Of a stretch of 64,000 nucleotides of DNA, positions 19,112-24,196 are shown one piece after another. Position numbers and translations under genes: made by a program. The stretch comes from Catenulispora pinistramenti (GTDB taxonomy: Bacteria > Actinomycetota > Actinomycetes > Streptomycetales > Catenulisporaceae). The number at the start of each line of letters is the position of its first letter. Position 1 is the stretch's first letter. The notes under the pieces are model-generated. The model was not told the origin of the DNA. It did no database searches and saw only the letters and a list, made by a program, of their open reading frames with translations. The DNA lies in contig NZ_JAAFYZ010000008.1 in assembly GCF_018274385.1 (NCBI RefSeq), forward strand, positions 1 through 64,000, in the 5' to 3' direction.

Positions 19112-19227
19112 ATCCGGGTGATACCCGTCGGCGGTATCCGGCGACCATCGGCGGTTCCGCGAGTTGTCACGGTGATGCAACCTGTTCTGGCGACCCCGCG
19201 GTTTGTGCGTGCGGAAGGGGGTACCGG

Positions 19228-19770
19228 ATGCGGTCCGAGGACGAAGACGAGTTCCGCCACTTCACGGCTGCGCGGTGGCCGGGGCTGGTGCGGACGGCGT
19301 ATCTGCTGACGGGGGATCTCGGCCACGCCGAAGATCTCGCCCAGGCGACGTTGATCAAGGCCTACCGGTCGTGGCACCGGGTGCGCCGGGTCGAGGACGT
19401 CGACGCCTACGTGCGCAAGATCCTGGTCAACGCCAACCGGAGTCGGTTCCGGTCGAAGCGGCCGGTGGAGTACAGCGTCGCCACGGTGCCGGAGCCGCAC
19501 GCGCGGCCGGACGCCAGTCGCGCGGTCGAGGACCGGGACGTGCTGTTCGCGGCGCTGGCCGGGCTGCCGCCGCGGCAGCGCGCGATCGTGGTGCTGCGGT
19601 ACTGGGAGGACTTGGCCGAGGGCGAGGTCGCCGACCTGCTCGGCTGTTCCGTCGGCAACGTCAAGAGCCAGGCTTCACGGGCGCTGGCGAAGTTGAGGAA
19701 TGACGCGGGTCTGGCCGGGCTGTCCTCGTTTCGGGAGCCGGCGGCGTCGTTGAGAGGAGAACGGGCATGA
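19228..19770 (+). CDS. SigE-family ECF RNA polymerase sigma factor
   Basis: 180 residues. Region 2 is at about 10-75 (A-Y-L-L-T-G-D-L-G-H-A-E-D-L-A-Q-A-T-L-I-K-A, as separate residues) and region 4 at about 105-160 (L-P-P-R-Q-R-A-I-V-V-L-R-Y-W-E-D-L, S-V-G-N-V-K-S-Q-A-S-R-A-L). It belongs to the actinobacterial group usually named SigE family (SigE70). Its stop overlaps the start of a membrane protein with a DsbA-like domain (ATGA), so the two are translationally coupled. It probably drives its own operon. Confidence 0.93.
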   Translation: MRSEDEDEFRHFTAARWPGLVRTAYLLTGDLGHAEDLAQATLIKAYRSWHRVRRVEDVDAYVRKILVNANRSRFRSKRPVEYSVATVPEPHARPDASRAVEDRDVLFAALAGLPPRQRAIVVLRYWEDLAEGEVADLLGCSVGNVKSQASRALAKLRNDAGLAGLSSFREPAASLRGERA

Positions 19771-20600
19771 CACAGGATTCGTGGGACGACGGCCTGCGCG
19801 AGATCATGACCGGCACCGCCGGCACGGCACGGGTCGCGGCGGCGCCGACCGATGTGATCCTGCGGCGGGGGCGGTCCTCGGTGCGTCGGCGGAACGGTCT
19901 GGCGGGCTCGGCGGTGCTCGGGGTCGTCGCCGCGGCGGTGATCGCGGGGACCGCCTTCGCCTCCGGAACAGCTGGCAGCTCCCCGCAGCCCGGTGCGGCG
20001 TCCAGCTCGGGGCGACTGTCGCCGGCCGCGGACGCCGTGGTGACCCTGGGATCGCCGTCGGCGAAGACGAAGGTGGTGATCTACGACGACTACCGCTGCC
20101 CGCCGTGCCGCCAGGTCGACAGCGGGACCAGCGCGCTGCTCAAGCAGGAGACCGCGTCCGGCAAGATCGAGGTCGAGTACCGCCCGGTCGACCTGATCGA
20201 CCGCCACGACACGCCGAACGGGACCGGGTCCGTGGTCGCGGGAAACGCCGTGCAGTGTGCGGCCGATCGGGGCGACTTCCTCGCCTACCGGGCCGCGGTC
20301 TTCGCGCACCAACCGGCCTCCGACGCCGATGACCCCTTCAGCTCGCCGACGGAGATGATCTCCATCGCCCGGGGGATCCCCGGTCTGGTGACTCCGTCGT
20401 TTGTGAAGTGCGTGGACGATCAGCCGTATGCGGCGGCGATCCGCGCGAACTACGACACCGCCATCAACACCCTGCAGTGCCCCGGCGTGCCGTGCATCAA
20501 CGCCGGCGGCCAACAGTGGAACGGCCAGGGAACCGACAGCACCAAGCCGCTGGGAGTCGGCGTCGACACCTGGTTGACTCAGATTATTGGGGCGCACTAA
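19767..20600 (+). CDS. Membrane-anchored DsbA-like thioredoxin-fold protein, putative anti-sigma partner
   Basis: 277 residues. About 40 cytoplasmic residues (beginning T-Q-D-S-W-D-D-G-L-R-E-I) are followed by one membrane helix (G-S-A-V-L-G-V-V-A-A-A-V-I-A-G, about 46-68) and an extracytoplasmic domain. That domain has D-D-Y-R-C-P-P-C-R-Q at about 108-117, a CPPC active site in a DsbA/thioredoxin-4 setting, and another Cys pair near the end (Q-C-P-G-V-P-C). The gene overlaps the sigma-factor gene by four bases, the position normally held by an anti-sigma factor. No zinc-binding anti-sigma motif is present in the N-terminal part. Either the short cytoplasmic segment binds the sigma factor or the protein is just a regulated thiol oxidoreductase. 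Confidence 0.85.
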   Translation: MTQDSWDDGLREIMTGTAGTARVAAAPTDVILRRGRSSVRRRNGLAGSAVLGVVAAAVIAGTAFASGTAGSSPQPGAASSSGRLSPAADAVVTLGSPSAKTKVVIYDDYRCPPCRQVDSGTSALLKQETASGKIEVEYRPVDLIDRHDTPNGTGSVVAGNAVQCAADRGDFLAYRAAVFAHQPASDADDPFSSPTEMISIARGIPGLVTPSFVKCVDDQPYAAAIRANYDTAINTLQCPGVPCINAGGQQWNGQGTDSTKPLGVGVDTWLTQIIGAH

Positions 20601-20688
20601 CGGTGTCGCGGCGGGCGCACGGACACCATCCTGCCCGGCTGAGAAAACCCGTGGTCGTGGCACGTACGCGCGGCTAGCTTGCTGCCCC

Positions 20689-21336
20689 ATGAGCTCTGAT
20701 CCGCAGAACATCATCGAGTCCGGATACGACGCCATGGCCGAGCAGTACTTGGCCGCGTTCGGCGAAGGCGTCCCCGACGATCCCCGGATCCGGTTCGTGG
20801 GCGAGTTGGCCGACCGTCTTCCTGACGGTGCGCGCGTTCTCGAGCTCGGCTGTGGTGCCGGGGTGCCGGCGACCGCCTTGCTGGCTCAACGTTTTGACGT
20901 TCTCGGCGTGGACATTTCGGCCGCTCAGCTGGCGCTCGCCGCGCAGCGGGTGCCGAGCGCCGCGTTCCGCAAGGCGGACATGATCAATCTGGAGCTGCCG
21001 GACGCCTCGTTCGACGCGGTCACGGCGTTCTACAGCTTCAACCACGTTCCCCGCGAGCAGCAGCCACCCCTGCTGGCCAAGATCGCCCGCTGGCTCCGCC
21101 CCGGCGGCCTCCTGCTGGCTTCCTTCGGCCAGGGCGGGTCGGCCGACGACGTCGAACCGTGGCTCGGCGTCCCCATGTTCTTCGCCAGCCACGATCCGGC
21201 CACGAACACCCGCCATCTCACCGAGGCCGGTCTCACGCCGATCGTCGACGAGCTGGTGAGTAAGGAGACGGGGATGGGGTGCGAAGCGTGGCAGTGGGTG
21301 CTGGCTCGCGGTGCTGGTGAGGGCGCCGGACGTTAA
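20689..21336 (+). CDS. Class I SAM-dependent methyltransferase
   Basis: 215 residues. Motif I is V-L-E-L-G-C-G-A-G-V-P-A, followed by V-L-G-V-D-I-S, A-D-M-I-N-L-E-L-P-D-A-S-F-D-A-V, and W-L-R-P-G-G-L-L-L-A-S-F. The UbiE/Methyltransf_11-like layout suggests a small-molecule O-, N- or C-methyltransferase; the substrate is unknown. ATG at 20689 begins M-S-S-D-P-Q-N-I, and the upstream open frame is not coding-like. A perfect 17-bp-stem terminator follows. Confidence 0.9.
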   Translation: MSSDPQNIIESGYDAMAEQYLAAFGEGVPDDPRIRFVGELADRLPDGARVLELGCGAGVPATALLAQRFDVLGVDISAAQLALAAQRVPSAAFRKADMINLELPDASFDAVTAFYSFNHVPREQQPPLLAKIARWLRPGGLLLASFGQGGSADDVEPWLGVPMFFASHDPATNTRHLTEAGLTPIVDELVSKETGMGCEAWQWVLARGAGEGAGR

Positions 21337-21348
21337 GTGCTAACCCTG

Positions 21349-21389
21349 AACCGGCGGTGACACAGGCGCGCTCTGTGTCACCGCCGGTT
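21349..21389 (+). terminator. Strong bidirectional terminator
   Basis: A 17-bp perfect inverted repeat (21349-21365 with 21373-21389; core GGCGGTGACACAG / CTGTGTCACCGCC) around a seven-base loop. It separates the methyltransferase gene from the convergent sigma-partner gene. Confidence 0.93.
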
Positions 21390-21415
21390 CGATCGACCGC
21401 GTTAAGCGGTCAGAT

Positions 21416-22315
21416 TCATGGGACGGTCACCGCGTTGGCGACGAGGGCCTTCAACTCTGTGACGGCCTGGTCCCATCCCGGTGCCGCCAGCAGTGTGCTC
21501 GCCTGGTCGCTGGTCAATGTGAACTGCGAGGGCGACGGTTCCACCATGTCGACTTCGATCACAGCGCCGTCCGGACGGACCCAGACGTAGGACAAAAAGT
21601 AGGGACCAGTCTGAGTAGTGGGATCCTTCCGGCTTTTGTACGTGATGAACTCGCCGCCCTTGGCGAACGGGGCGACGGTGCACACGTCATTCGGGCTCAG
21701 CTTCATCTTCTGACAGGTGGGTGTGTCGGTGCGGATCGAGACGACGACCCCGGCGCCCGGACCGTCCTGGGTGCCCAGGCTCCACGTGCCGTGGACGGTG
21801 CCGAGGATGTTCGCTGGAGCGCCGTTGACCGGCAGGTTCTTCCCATCCGGGATCTTTGTGCCGCCCGCGCCGAATCCCGTTTTGACGGGATGCGAGCCGG
21901 GCGGAAGGGCGCCCACCGCGATATCCAGTACGGAGTTCGCGAGCGCCTTGCCTTGAGCCGCCGTCACGTGTGTCGGGGCCACGGCCGCCGGCGACGTCGA
22001 GTGGTCGGGGCTCGGGCTCGGGGTCGAGCTCGATGATGTGACCCCGGCCGCGCCCGGGCCGACTGACGAAGGCGTGGAAGCCCCGGTGCGCGACGGGATC
22101 ATGGTGACGACGGCGCCGGCGACGCCGACCGCCGCGACCGCGGCGAGCGTCCCGGCGGCGGCCGAGCGGCGGCGGTGGCGCCGGGCGTGGGCCAGCGCCC
22201 CGGCGTGCAGCACGGCGGAGGCCGGTGCCTCGAAGGAGAAGGCAGTCTCGCGGAACGCCGCGGCGATGCCGTCCGGTTGATCGTGGTCGATGTCCTCGAA
22301 GTGATCGGTGGACAT
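21416..22315 (-). CDS. Membrane protein downstream of SigE-family sigma factor
   Basis: 299 residues. A cytoplasmic N-terminus (about 1-50, containing F-R-E-T-A-F-S-F-E-A-P) is followed by one membrane helix (T-L-A-A-V-A-A-V-G-V-A-G-A-V-V, about 55-72), a Ser/Pro/Thr-rich linker and an extracytoplasmic domain with two cysteines (T-C-Q-K-M and V-C-T-V-A). It lies 74 bp downstream of a sigma-factor gene and likely modulates or is controlled by it. I do not recognise the outer domain. The layout parallels the DsbA-like sigma partner at 19767 but the domain differs. Confidence 0.8.
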   Translation of the reverse strand: MSTDHFEDIDHDQPDGIAAAFRETAFSFEAPASAVLHAGALAHARRHRRRSAAAGTLAAVAAVGVAGAVVTMIPSRTGASTPSSVGPGAAGVTSSSSTPSPSPDHSTSPAAVAPTHVTAAQGKALANSVLDIAVGALPPGSHPVKTGFGAGGTKIPDGKNLPVNGAPANILGTVHGTWSLGTQDGPGAGVVVSIRTDTPTCQKMKLSPNDVCTVAPFAKGGEFITYKSRKDPTTQTGPYFLSYVWVRPDGAVIEVDMVEPSPSQFTLTSDQASTLLAAPGWDQAVTELKALVANAVTVP

Positions 22316-22389
22316 GGGAGTACACCTCTTTCGTGTCAGGTCTGAGAGTGATCGGGGACCGGGCCGGTCCGGACGCGCCCGGGAAGTGC

Positions 22390-22947
22390 TCAGAAACGCG
22401 CCAGGTCGGCGAAATCGCCGCCCAGCAGCTCGCGAACCCGTGCCAGCGCACGGGAACAGCGCGAGCGGACGGCGGTGTCGGACAGGTTCAGCCGGGCCGC
22501 CGTCTCGGCCACACTCAGGTCCTCCCAGAACCTGAGCACCAGCACCGCACGGTCGACCGGCGGTAGCGACCGCAACGCCTCCAGCAACGCCACCCGCAGC
22601 ACGACGTCCTCGCCGCGAGTCGGTTGATCCGCCACACCGCCGAGCCCGCCACCGCCGGCCGGGCGTTCGCTGTTGCTCCGTTTACGCCGCGCCGACACAA
22701 ACCGGTTGACCAGGGTGGTCTGCGCATAACCGACCGGGTTGTCCAGCCCGCCCACCCGCTGCCACCGCCGGTACAGCAACCCGAAGGTCTCCTGGACCAG
22801 GTCCTCGGCGGCATGGGTGTCCCCACCGGTGAGCAGGCAGGCGGAACGGAACAACCGCGGTCCGCTGGCCGCGACGAACGCCTGGAAGTCCAGGGCCGCG
22901 CCGTCAGCTTCTGTCGACCCGCGACTCCCGCGCTGTATGAGCCTCAT
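22390..22947 (-). CDS. SigE-family ECF RNA polymerase sigma factor
   Basis: 185 residues. Region 2 is at about 20-85 (S-A-C-L-L-T-G-G-D-T-H-A-A-E-D-L-V-Q-E-T) and region 4 at about 120-175 (L-P-P-V-D-R-A-V-L-V-L-R-F-W-E-D-L, L-N-L-S-D-T-A-V-R-S-R). A Gly-rich linker joins them. Its partner membrane gene follows at 21416-22315. It is the last core gene before the left end of the integrated element. Confidence 0.93.
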   Translation of the reverse strand: MRLIQRGSRGSTEADGAALDFQAFVAASGPRLFRSACLLTGGDTHAAEDLVQETFGLLYRRWQRVGGLDNPVGYAQTTLVNRFVSARRKRSNSERPAGGGGLGGVADQPTRGEDVVLRVALLEALRSLPPVDRAVLVLRFWEDLSVAETAARLNLSDTAVRSRCSRALARVRELLGGDFADLARF

Positions 22948-23182
22948 ATCCGATCAACGCCGCGAAGATGGGGAACTGTGGCACGCGAATTTTCGGCCGC
23001 GGCCGTACCGAGGTCTGGAAGTCGGACAAACCCGTCGACCGACCGCGTCACACCCATCGGGGTTAACCGGGACACCCGACAGAGCGTCCTCATCCCCGCC
23101 CGAAAACGATCGGGAAAAGCGATCAGGCCCGGTTCCCCGGGACTTGTCGTCCTCGGAACCGAGCCCTATCGTCGACTACTTA

Positions 23183-23218
23183 CAAGTGCGCGAGGGGGGA
23201 GTTGAACCCCCACGCCCT
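23183..23218. repeat. attL: 36-bp copy of the tRNA-Leu 3' end
   Basis: Identical over 36 bases to 33524-33559; the flanking bases differ on both sides. It contains the T-arm and acceptor 3' strand of tRNA-Leu (GTTGAACCCCC and GCGCGAG as seen on the plus strand) but no 5' half, so it is the tRNA fragment left behind by integration. Confidence 0.95.
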
Positions 23219-23327
23219 ACCCGGCAAACCGGCAACGGATCACCAGGTGAACGAGTCCCTGACCAGCATAGACGCGCTGGTTGGGGACTCTTCGTTTGTA
23301 CCCGAGAGGACATAAAAAGACATCAGG

Positions 23328-23353
23328 TTGCATGTCGGTTGCATGGCTGCATG
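23328..23353 (+). promoter_or_regulatory. TTGCATG repeats near attL (putative integrase/Xis arm sites)
   Basis: TTGCATG at 23328-23334 and 23339-23345, plus CTGCATG at 23347-23353. The same heptamer occurs twice near attR (33458-33464 and 33470-33476). Direct repeats just inside both att sites are what integrase arm-binding or excisionase sites look like. Confidence 0.6.
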
Positions 23354-23496
23354 ACGGGTGGTCGGCTGACGCGCGCCGAGGCAGTCAGGGACGTGACTAC
23401 CGATCTATGCAGGAACGTGACTTGCCGTTGACCAGGCATCACCCCACACCTAGCCTCGCTTATGGTGATCAACCCACTACAAGACAAGGGGGAACC

Positions 23497-23697
23497 ATGA
23501 AGCTCACGAAACTGGCCGACCCGCCGGACTGCGGTTCCGACGACTGCCCGGCCGTGTACGTCACGGACTCCGGCACGATCGTCGTACAGGGCGACGCGGT
23601 GAGCCAGGCTGAAGGGCTCCGACTCGGCGCCGGGGAACAGGCAGTCGAGATCTCGGCAGACCTGTTGAGGGAGGCACTGCGTGCGCTTGGAGGGTGA
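23497..23697 (+). CDS. Small cysteine-containing protein, partner of DUF6879
   Basis: 66 residues. The N-terminal half has P-P-D-C-G-S-D-D-C-P-A-V-Y, with a C-x4-C pair, then T-D-S-G-T-I-V-V-Q-G-D-A-V, ending in an amphipathic helix (S-A-D-L-L-R-E-A-L-R). Proteins of this shape commonly precede DUF6879 genes in actinobacteria, and the DUF6879 gene here overlaps its 3' end. ATG 23497 follows AAGGGGGAA. Function unknown; the cysteine pair could bind a metal. Confidence 0.8.
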   Translation: MKLTKLADPPDCGSDDCPAVYVTDSGTIVVQGDAVSQAEGLRLGAGEQAVEISADLLREALRALGG

Positions 23698-24196
23698 AGT
23701 CTGGCGGGCGTACTCTCGCGACTTCAAGCGGTCCGCGTTTCGGCTGGAGACCCAACCGACGTACACCATGCCGGACGAGGTAGACGAGGTACGACGGTTT
23801 CTAGCCGGCGAGCTGAGTCCGCCGGAGGGTCACAACGCCCGTTGGCATGAGACCGTGCGCGCCAACGTAAAGGCGGGCAAGAGTATGACGCGCGTCCGTG
23901 TCATGCGCCAGCCGCTCACCGATTACCAACGGTATGGATTTGCCTGGTCTGTCCCCGGCAACATCGCAGCCGGGGAAGACATCCGCGTCCTGGACCTGAC
24001 TGGCAAGCCGTTGCCCCCGCTTCCCACATTCGACTTCTGGCTGTGGGACGAAGAGATCGTGGCACGGCTCGACTACCACATGGACGGGACGCAGATCGGC
24101 CGTGAACTGGTCGAAGACGCCGACCTAGGGCGATACCTTGAATGGCGAGACTACGCGCTAGCACACTCAGTGCCGTTCCAGGAGTACCAACACTGA
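23681..24196 (+). CDS. DUF6879 family protein
   Basis: 171 residues. The family pattern is clear: F-K-R-S-A-F-R-L-E-T-Q-P-T-Y, E-V-R-R-F-L-A-G-E, R-V-R-V-M-R-Q-P-L-T-D-Y-Q-R-Y, A-G-E-D-I-R-V-L-D, and the end F-W-L-W-D-E-E-I-V-A-R-L-D-Y. Biochemical function is not known. GTG at 23681 overlaps the preceding small gene by 17 bases, and the next gene begins 55 bases before its end, so the three are tightly coupled. The recurrent linkage to XRE-DUF5753 regulators suggests a signalling or toxin-antitoxin-like role, which is inference. Confidence 0.88.
   Translation: MRLEGEVWRAYSRDFKRSAFRLETQPTYTMPDEVDEVRRFLAGELSPPEGHNARWHETVRANVKAGKSMTRVRVMRQPLTDYQRYGFAWSVPGNIAAGEDIRVLDLTGKPLPPLPTFDFWLWDEEIVARLDYHMDGTQIGRELVEDADLGRYLEWRDYALAHSVPFQEYQH

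Follow-up and report, generated by a model that had tools for sequence, protein, structure and literature searches.

A SigE-family sigma factor gene of Catenulispora overlaps the gene of a membrane protein with an outer DsbA-like domain, a putative thiol-responsive anti-sigma factor

Results

The gene pair and its surroundings

The window (the whole stretch of DNA that was analysed, 64,000 nucleotides) belongs to a Catenulispora genome of 11.46 Mb and contains a gene for an ECF sigma factor followed by a gene for a membrane protein. An earlier note on this DNA had pointed out the pair, and its coordinates were exact: the sigma gene lies at 19228-19770 and the partner gene at 19767-20600, and the stop codon of the first overlaps the start codon of the second by four bases, as ATGA. 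The features of the locus are as follows.

19176..19202, plus strand: promoter-like element TGCAACC...CGYGGT just 5' of the sigma gene, a candidate autoregulated ECF promoter
19228..19770, plus strand: SigE-family ECF sigma factor, 180 amino acids (TIGR02983, Sigma70_r2, r4_2)
19767..20600, plus strand: membrane partner, 277 amino acids (tail inside, single helix across the membrane, DsbA-like domain outside)
19767..19895, plus strand: partner residues 1-43, predicted cytoplasmic sigma-partner tail (tail HMM)
19896..19964, plus strand: partner residues 44-66, single membrane helix (hydropathy)
20031..20531, plus strand: partner residues 89-255, outer DsbA-like domain (Pfam, AlphaFold2, Foldseek)
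20097..20108, plus strand: CPPC active-site motif, residues 111-114 (alignment of orthologs and relatives)
20478..20495, plus strand: CPGVPC, residues 238-243, additional CX4C pair bracketing the presumed cis-proline 242 (alignment)
20689..21336, plus strand: SAM methyltransferase gene 3' of the pair (Methyltransf_25, 80.6 bits)

The sigma factor is a member of the SigE family, as had been noted, with a TIGR02983 score of 190.1 bits against the curated cut-off of 141.55. In the partner about 43 residues precede a hydrophobic helix at residues ~44-66, and a variable linker then leads to the DsbA-like domain. Since a basic run stands in front of the helix, an inside tail and an outside domain are expected, so that hydropathy and charge agree with the topology of the earlier note (short inner part, one helix, outer domain). 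A lipoprotein anchor was rejected, the hydrophobic stretch having no Cys at its end. The window contains a second SigE-family sigma gene as well (22390-22947, minus strand, 148.3 bits); its partner (21416-22315, minus strand), which is encoded about 0.8 kb beyond the DsbA gene, has the same kind of inner tail and is also found in the C. pinisilvae record at 84.6% identity.

Conservation of the pair

Orthologs of the DsbA protein were present in 8 of 10 Catenulispora genomes (identity at least 52%) and orthologs of the sigma factor in 7 of the 10 (identity at least 76%). Wherever the sigma ortholog occurred, it stood directly before the DsbA gene with the ATGA overlap (7/7), and no orphan sigma gene was found among the ten genomes. 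The pair of C. pinisilvae encodes a DsbA protein 91% identical to that of the window, and further orthologs of this protein were detected in C. rubra and in Catenulispora MAG records. Two genomes of the genus (G004 and G006) lack both proteins. C. rubra (G003; L017, L100) has the DsbA protein with an intact tail and no sigma gene in front of it, nor was there any sigma match at E 1e-55 elsewhere in that genome; since the window's genes for a phosphatase, an acetyltransferase and a methyltransferase are retained near its DsbA gene, the sigma gene seems to have been lost there.

In the order sample (293 genomes, 283 of them outside the genus) the non-genus matches to the DsbA protein, among the matches listed, were no better than 4.1e-48, and the Catenulispora orthologs scored 9.4e-130 or better in the same search; the class sample of 394 genomes gave no match at 1e-35 outside the order. 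When 84 DsbA loci were scanned with a sigma HMM, a sigma gene was recognized at seven only, all of them loci of the pair. A tandem of two sigma-free DsbA-like genes (L012, L013; G000:C611) was observed separately, and it recurs in several other Catenulispora genomes.

The seven overlapping pairs rule out a chance neighbourhood of the two genes, and they bear out the anti-sigma position that had been assigned to the partner. The earlier note had also asked for conserved sigma/DsbA pairs and had named their non-conservation as a ground for giving up the proposal. Within Catenulispora this ground falls away, the pair being kept in all sigma-bearing genomes; the expectation holds in the genus only, as no ortholog appeared outside it among the matches listed and C. 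rubra has the partner without the sigma factor. The methyltransferase gene adjoins the DsbA gene in the same direction in seven of the eight ortholog genomes (the other six copies are 79-94% identical) and is a possible operon member or target.

The promoter-like element

The DNA upstream of the seven pairs is divergent except for the ribosome-binding stretch and the block TGCAACCTGKTYYGG...YGYGGT, a promoter-like element kept in 7/7 orthologous pairs. With up to two mismatches allowed, the pattern has a single site in its own genome, at 19176..19202, and with up to three it matches once in the window against a shuffle mean of 0.15. In the other genomes every site without mismatch precedes the pair, and the site of the pair in one genome (G005) has two mismatches. 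ECF promoters usually have a -35 element of the AAC type and a -10 element of the CGT type, and the presence of such an element before the sigma gene makes its autoregulation likely as far as the sequence can tell. Scanning for sigma-70 promoters and terminators returned none.

The outer domain and its cysteines

The outer CPPC thioredoxin-like domain that had been read from the letters was recovered by Pfam well above the cut-offs (Thioredoxin_4, 61.1 bits against 23.2; DSBA, 33.5 against 25.6). AlphaFold2 modelled it with ten-residue block means of 81-98, and the top Foldseek matches were DsbG/DsbA chains of M. tuberculosis. The Pfam scores, the CPPC motif and P242 at the cis-Pro position together place it among the DsbA-like thioredoxin folds.

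Four cysteines (C111, C114, C164 and C215) occur in 8/8 orthologs and in 48/48 aligned relatives. C238 and C243 are found in 7/8 orthologs and in none of the 44 relatives that are ungapped there, which are sigma-free DsbA proteins from Catenulispora, its family and its order. In G005 both are missing and the sigma/partner pair is intact, thus CX4C as an absolute requirement was ruled out. That the two cysteines are kept or missing together suggests a disulfide between them. In the general thioredoxin layout the cis-proline loop lies next to the active site, and the position of C238 and C243 in this layout suggests an interplay with CPPC.

The inner tail

Residues 1-43 of the partner contain neither Cys nor His, which makes a zinc anti-sigma motif impossible. 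The class I zinc anti-sigma domain (ZAS, with Hx3Cx2C in the cytoplasmic domain) was excluded on this basis, and here the earlier note, which had found no known zinc anti-sigma motif, was right. W6, L10 and M14 of the tail are invariant among the orthologs, and the identity of the orthologs is 0.73 in the tail and 0.40 in the linker. Two helices (3-14 and 28-42) were predicted in the tail with low confidence, the AlphaFold2 block means being 39-51 in this region; the model was built from 56 aligned sequences, and a run with the eight orthologs only (mean pLDDT 45) was discarded.

A search of the PDB sequences with the tail profile brought up no anti-sigma structure, the best match (E 0.055) being unrelated. 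Pfam gave only scattered single matches on 70 partner tails, and the whole partner matched nothing in Pfam at E up to 1 beyond Thioredoxin_4 and DSBA, neither an anti-sigma domain nor the RsgI N-terminal domain. The partner also falls short of the CU044_5270 family (NF038083, 19.4 bits against a cut-off of 100) and of the Rcas_1661 family of (seleno)lipoproteins (NF041057, 46.9 bits against 190). According to the accessible part of PMC7406223, class I anti-sigma domains were filtered at 50 residues or more, and those of less than 50 amino acids were kept apart as class II candidates; with about 43 residues before its helix the partner is below this size. It is possible that the tail belongs to the CnrY-type class II, defined by a short two-helix domain that wraps the sigma factor, since two helices are predicted, though at low confidence and with no sequence match to solved structures.

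A common tail among SigE-family partners

In the genome of the window 47 sigma genes of the SigE family score 111 bits or more, and these were examined together with 29 loci fetched automatically and 100 picked by hand for genome variety, among the matches listed (176 loci; the picking thinned the same-order family f2, presumably Streptomyces). A same-strand reading frame with an early membrane helix was found close behind the sigma gene, within -16 to +80 bases of its stop, in 145/176 cases (42/47 in the own genome and 103/129 in other Actinomycetes), and 121 of the 145 partners overlap their sigma gene. From the start of the partner to its helix the median distance is 46 residues. Typical of these tails are an acidic start, a short helix of the L-R-x-x-L kind and a run rich in Arg in front of the membrane helix; a proline is frequent. 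Four partners were dropped before the Pfam scan and 141 were left: L047 (an acyl-CoA-ligase-like reading frame by eye), L193 and L283 (helix starting before residue 33), and L192. In the training of the tail HMMs 141 tails, L192 included, entered the first model and 140 the later one.

On HMMs built from the tails of other SigE-family partners the tail of the window scored 20.0-23.5 bits. The model from 141 other tails gave it 20.0 bits (11.7-20.0 for the eight orthologs), a score reached by 0 of 2000 shuffles, and the model trained on other genomes only gave it 23.5. None of the 48 sigma-free DsbA relatives came up to this tail score, all of them remaining at or below 8.0. Among held-out tails 134/141 stood above the 95th percentile of 226 decoys, and a single decoy (1/226) reached the score of the window's DsbA partner tail. 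This decoy comes from L094 (window 19500-23700), on the minus strand, in the region of the second SigE pair, whose partner tail scores 20.0 directly and 9.7 with the model from other genomes only. Since the tail is recognized by these models and is absent from the sigma-free relatives, the DsbA protein of the pair belongs with the sigma partners, as one that bears a DsbA head, and is no ordinary DsbA placed at this site by chance. Most of the surveyed SigE-family sigma genes thus have a membrane partner with a short inner tail of a common kind, which is a new observation. The earlier note had suspected that the partner may be an undescribed type of redox-sensing anti-sigma factor; its peculiarity lies in the DsbA head, seen in one genus only, and not in the inner tail, which is no one-off, though it is without a match in Pfam or among solved structures.

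The heads differ from partner to partner. In the Pfam scan of the 141 partners a thioredoxin-type head was found in the protein of the window only; YceG, YkuD (L,D-transpeptidase), penicillin-binding transpeptidase, PASTA, PKD, PQQ and Gmad2 heads, among others, occurred in 1-3 members each, and most partners had none. NCBIfam named one of the 141 an anti-sigma factor, and eight matched CU044_5270 at E 0.001.

Some further observations were made on the own-genome loci (L047-L093), a large group of paralogs that putatively code for sigma/anti-sigma pairs and differ in the outer parts. The SigE partner of L052 (2004-3281) seems, by reading of the sequence, to run into an endolytic-transglycosylase-like domain; Pfam matched YceG in one of the 141 partners. 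The partner of the weakest own-genome sigma factor (L093, 1522-2373, minus strand) has a long cytoplasmic part that includes a stretch containing H and C, and it resembles an ordinary zinc anti-sigma factor.

Divergence of sigma factors and tails

Over 141 pairs the sigma distances correlated with those of the tail at r 0.479, of the membrane region at 0.221 and of the outer region at 0.128. When close sigma pairs were omitted the values were 0.265, 0.067 and -0.113, respectively, and for the 41 pairs of the own genome 0.291, 0.161 and 0.059; co-inheritance of adjacent genes and the poor alignability of the outer regions may account for a part of these correlations. The nearest neighbour by sigma factor was also the nearest by tail in 52/141 cases against a permutation mean of 0.96. 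In the column-wise mutual information between sigma factor and tail 1.36% of the column pairs exceeded Z 5, against 0.29% in the control region; the measure is noisy, rare residues seem to be behind several of the highest-scoring pairs, and it was given no weight as evidence. Taken as sequence statistics, the correlations would fit a tail constrained to suit its sigma factor, and heads that are exchanged.

Discussion

The partner is likely to work like an anti-sigma factor, judging from its sequence and gene position, and a thiol signal for it is plausible on the same grounds. On balance we favour a model in which the pair consists of a sigma factor and a membrane anti-sigma factor whose DsbA-like head passes the outer thiol state to the sigma factor, where we infer the binding, inhibition, sensing, proteolysis and autoregulation. 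The inner tail of about 43 residues, with its two short helices, would hold the sigma factor at the membrane, and the DsbA-like domain would be a sensing head that became attached to the common tail in Catenulispora. CPPC, in most species together with CX4C, might shift with the thiol redox balance outside the cell or with the load of reduced secreted proteins; the change of the head would free the sigma factor, probably by proteolytic cleavage within the membrane helix, and the freed sigma factor could then raise transcription of its own operon through the promoter-like element. C. rubra, which retains the protein without the sigma factor, and G005, without CX4C, count against this model, and so do the failure of the tail to match a known anti-sigma domain and the low AlphaFold2 confidence of the tail. 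A bolder version, that the short tails represent an uncharacterised class of anti-sigma factors, commonly encoded next to sigma factors of the SigE family in Actinomycetes, and that the DsbA head is a four-cysteine thiol switch (CPPC and CX4C) carrying the redox state directly to the sigma factor, we offer only tentatively and consider doubtful.

The outer domain has kept its full active site and may therefore be a plain enzyme. It is conceivable, although we think it unlikely, that the tail binds the sigma factor while the head is a working oxidoreductase, release being set by its load of clients (unfolded or reduced secreted proteins) and not by redox itself. The DsbA active site and fold are indeed fully kept, other partners bear enzyme-like heads (YceG, YkuD, penicillin-binding transpeptidase, PASTA, PQQ; 1-2/141 each), and there are precedents, as far as the cited sources describe them, in RsiV with lysozyme (PMC4183432) and in RsgI with polysaccharide (PMC12203970); the CX4C by the active site, present in 7/8 orthologs and 0/44 relatives, suggests a switch over a plain enzyme. 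That the partner is a membrane thiol oxidoreductase merely co-transcribed with the sigma factor, or a target of it, and that its tail is an anchor without sigma contact, appears improbable to us. The orphan DsbA of C. rubra and the invariant catalytic residues would agree with such a role, but the tails of the sigma-free DsbA relatives are unrelated (0/48 reach the score), the tail tracks the divergence of the sigma factor more than the membrane and outer regions do, and tails of this kind adjoin most of the SigE-family sigma genes surveyed.

The neighbour position in itself is no proof, since SigE of S. coelicolor is controlled without an anti-sigma factor: in the accessible part of PMC8999054 it is under the CseBC two-component system and the lipoprotein CseA. 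The partner could even assist the sigma factor, as a positive cofactor or as a membrane tether. The sequence data would fit activation as well as inhibition, and co-translation suits both; against this, the same source calls membrane-bound anti-sigma factors the most common ECF mechanism, and one orphan partner with no orphan sigma factor is what would be expected if free sigma factor were harmful, in a count of seven pairs and one orphan only. We regard this as very improbable.

An anti-sigma factor with a DsbA head would resemble several known systems in part. Like CnrY of class II, whose two helices wrap around CnrH (PMC7406223, in the part available), the partner has a short membrane-linked cytoplasmic part with two helices, here a low-confidence prediction; it differs in pairing with a SigE-family sigma factor, in its DsbA outer domain and in having no sequence match to a solved anti-sigma factor. 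RsbN of Streptomyces (class III, partner of BldN) is likewise a membrane-anchored actinobacterial anti-sigma factor of an ECF factor (accessible part of PMC8103513), but the tail profile of the window matched no anti-sigma structure among PDB sequences. The RsgI family of Clostridium thermocellum senses differing substrates and releases its sigma factor by membrane-helix proteolysis, as the part of PMC12203970 at hand describes; SigI, however, is not a SigE-family sigma factor, the signal is polysaccharide and not thiol, and the RsgI domain is absent from the partner.

RsrA, ChrR and RshA relay a redox or singlet-oxygen signal to an ECF sigma factor. As the accessible sources describe them, they are soluble proteins whose sensing takes place in the cell interior, by way of a zinc-binding domain, whereas here the cysteines would be outside and the tail has neither Cys nor His. 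The closest solved folds of the outer domain are the DsbA/DsbG-like proteins of M. tuberculosis (4jr6, 4ihu) and MdbA, in which no sigma-partner tail is evident. FrnE of Deinococcus radiodurans is also DsbA-like with a CXXC and a second CXXXXC for which a role in regenerating the active site was proposed, but it is cytoplasmic and its CXXXXC is C-terminal (239-244), not around the cis-proline (PMC8945050, in the part available). In the literature covered, outside which most subscription journals lie, we found no description, in the accessible texts, of an ECF sigma factor paired with a DsbA- or thioredoxin-like anti-sigma factor, and nothing on an extracytoplasmic redox anti-sigma factor or on CU044_5270.

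If the favoured model is true, the pair would link disulfide chemistry outside the membrane directly to transcription, while RsrA, ChrR and RshA, according to the sources at hand, sense inside the cell. The wider result may matter more: one common short tail with freely exchanged heads stands beside most of the SigE-family sigma factors surveyed, and the partners that share it make up a testable set of putative anti-sigma factors unnamed in the domain libraries searched.
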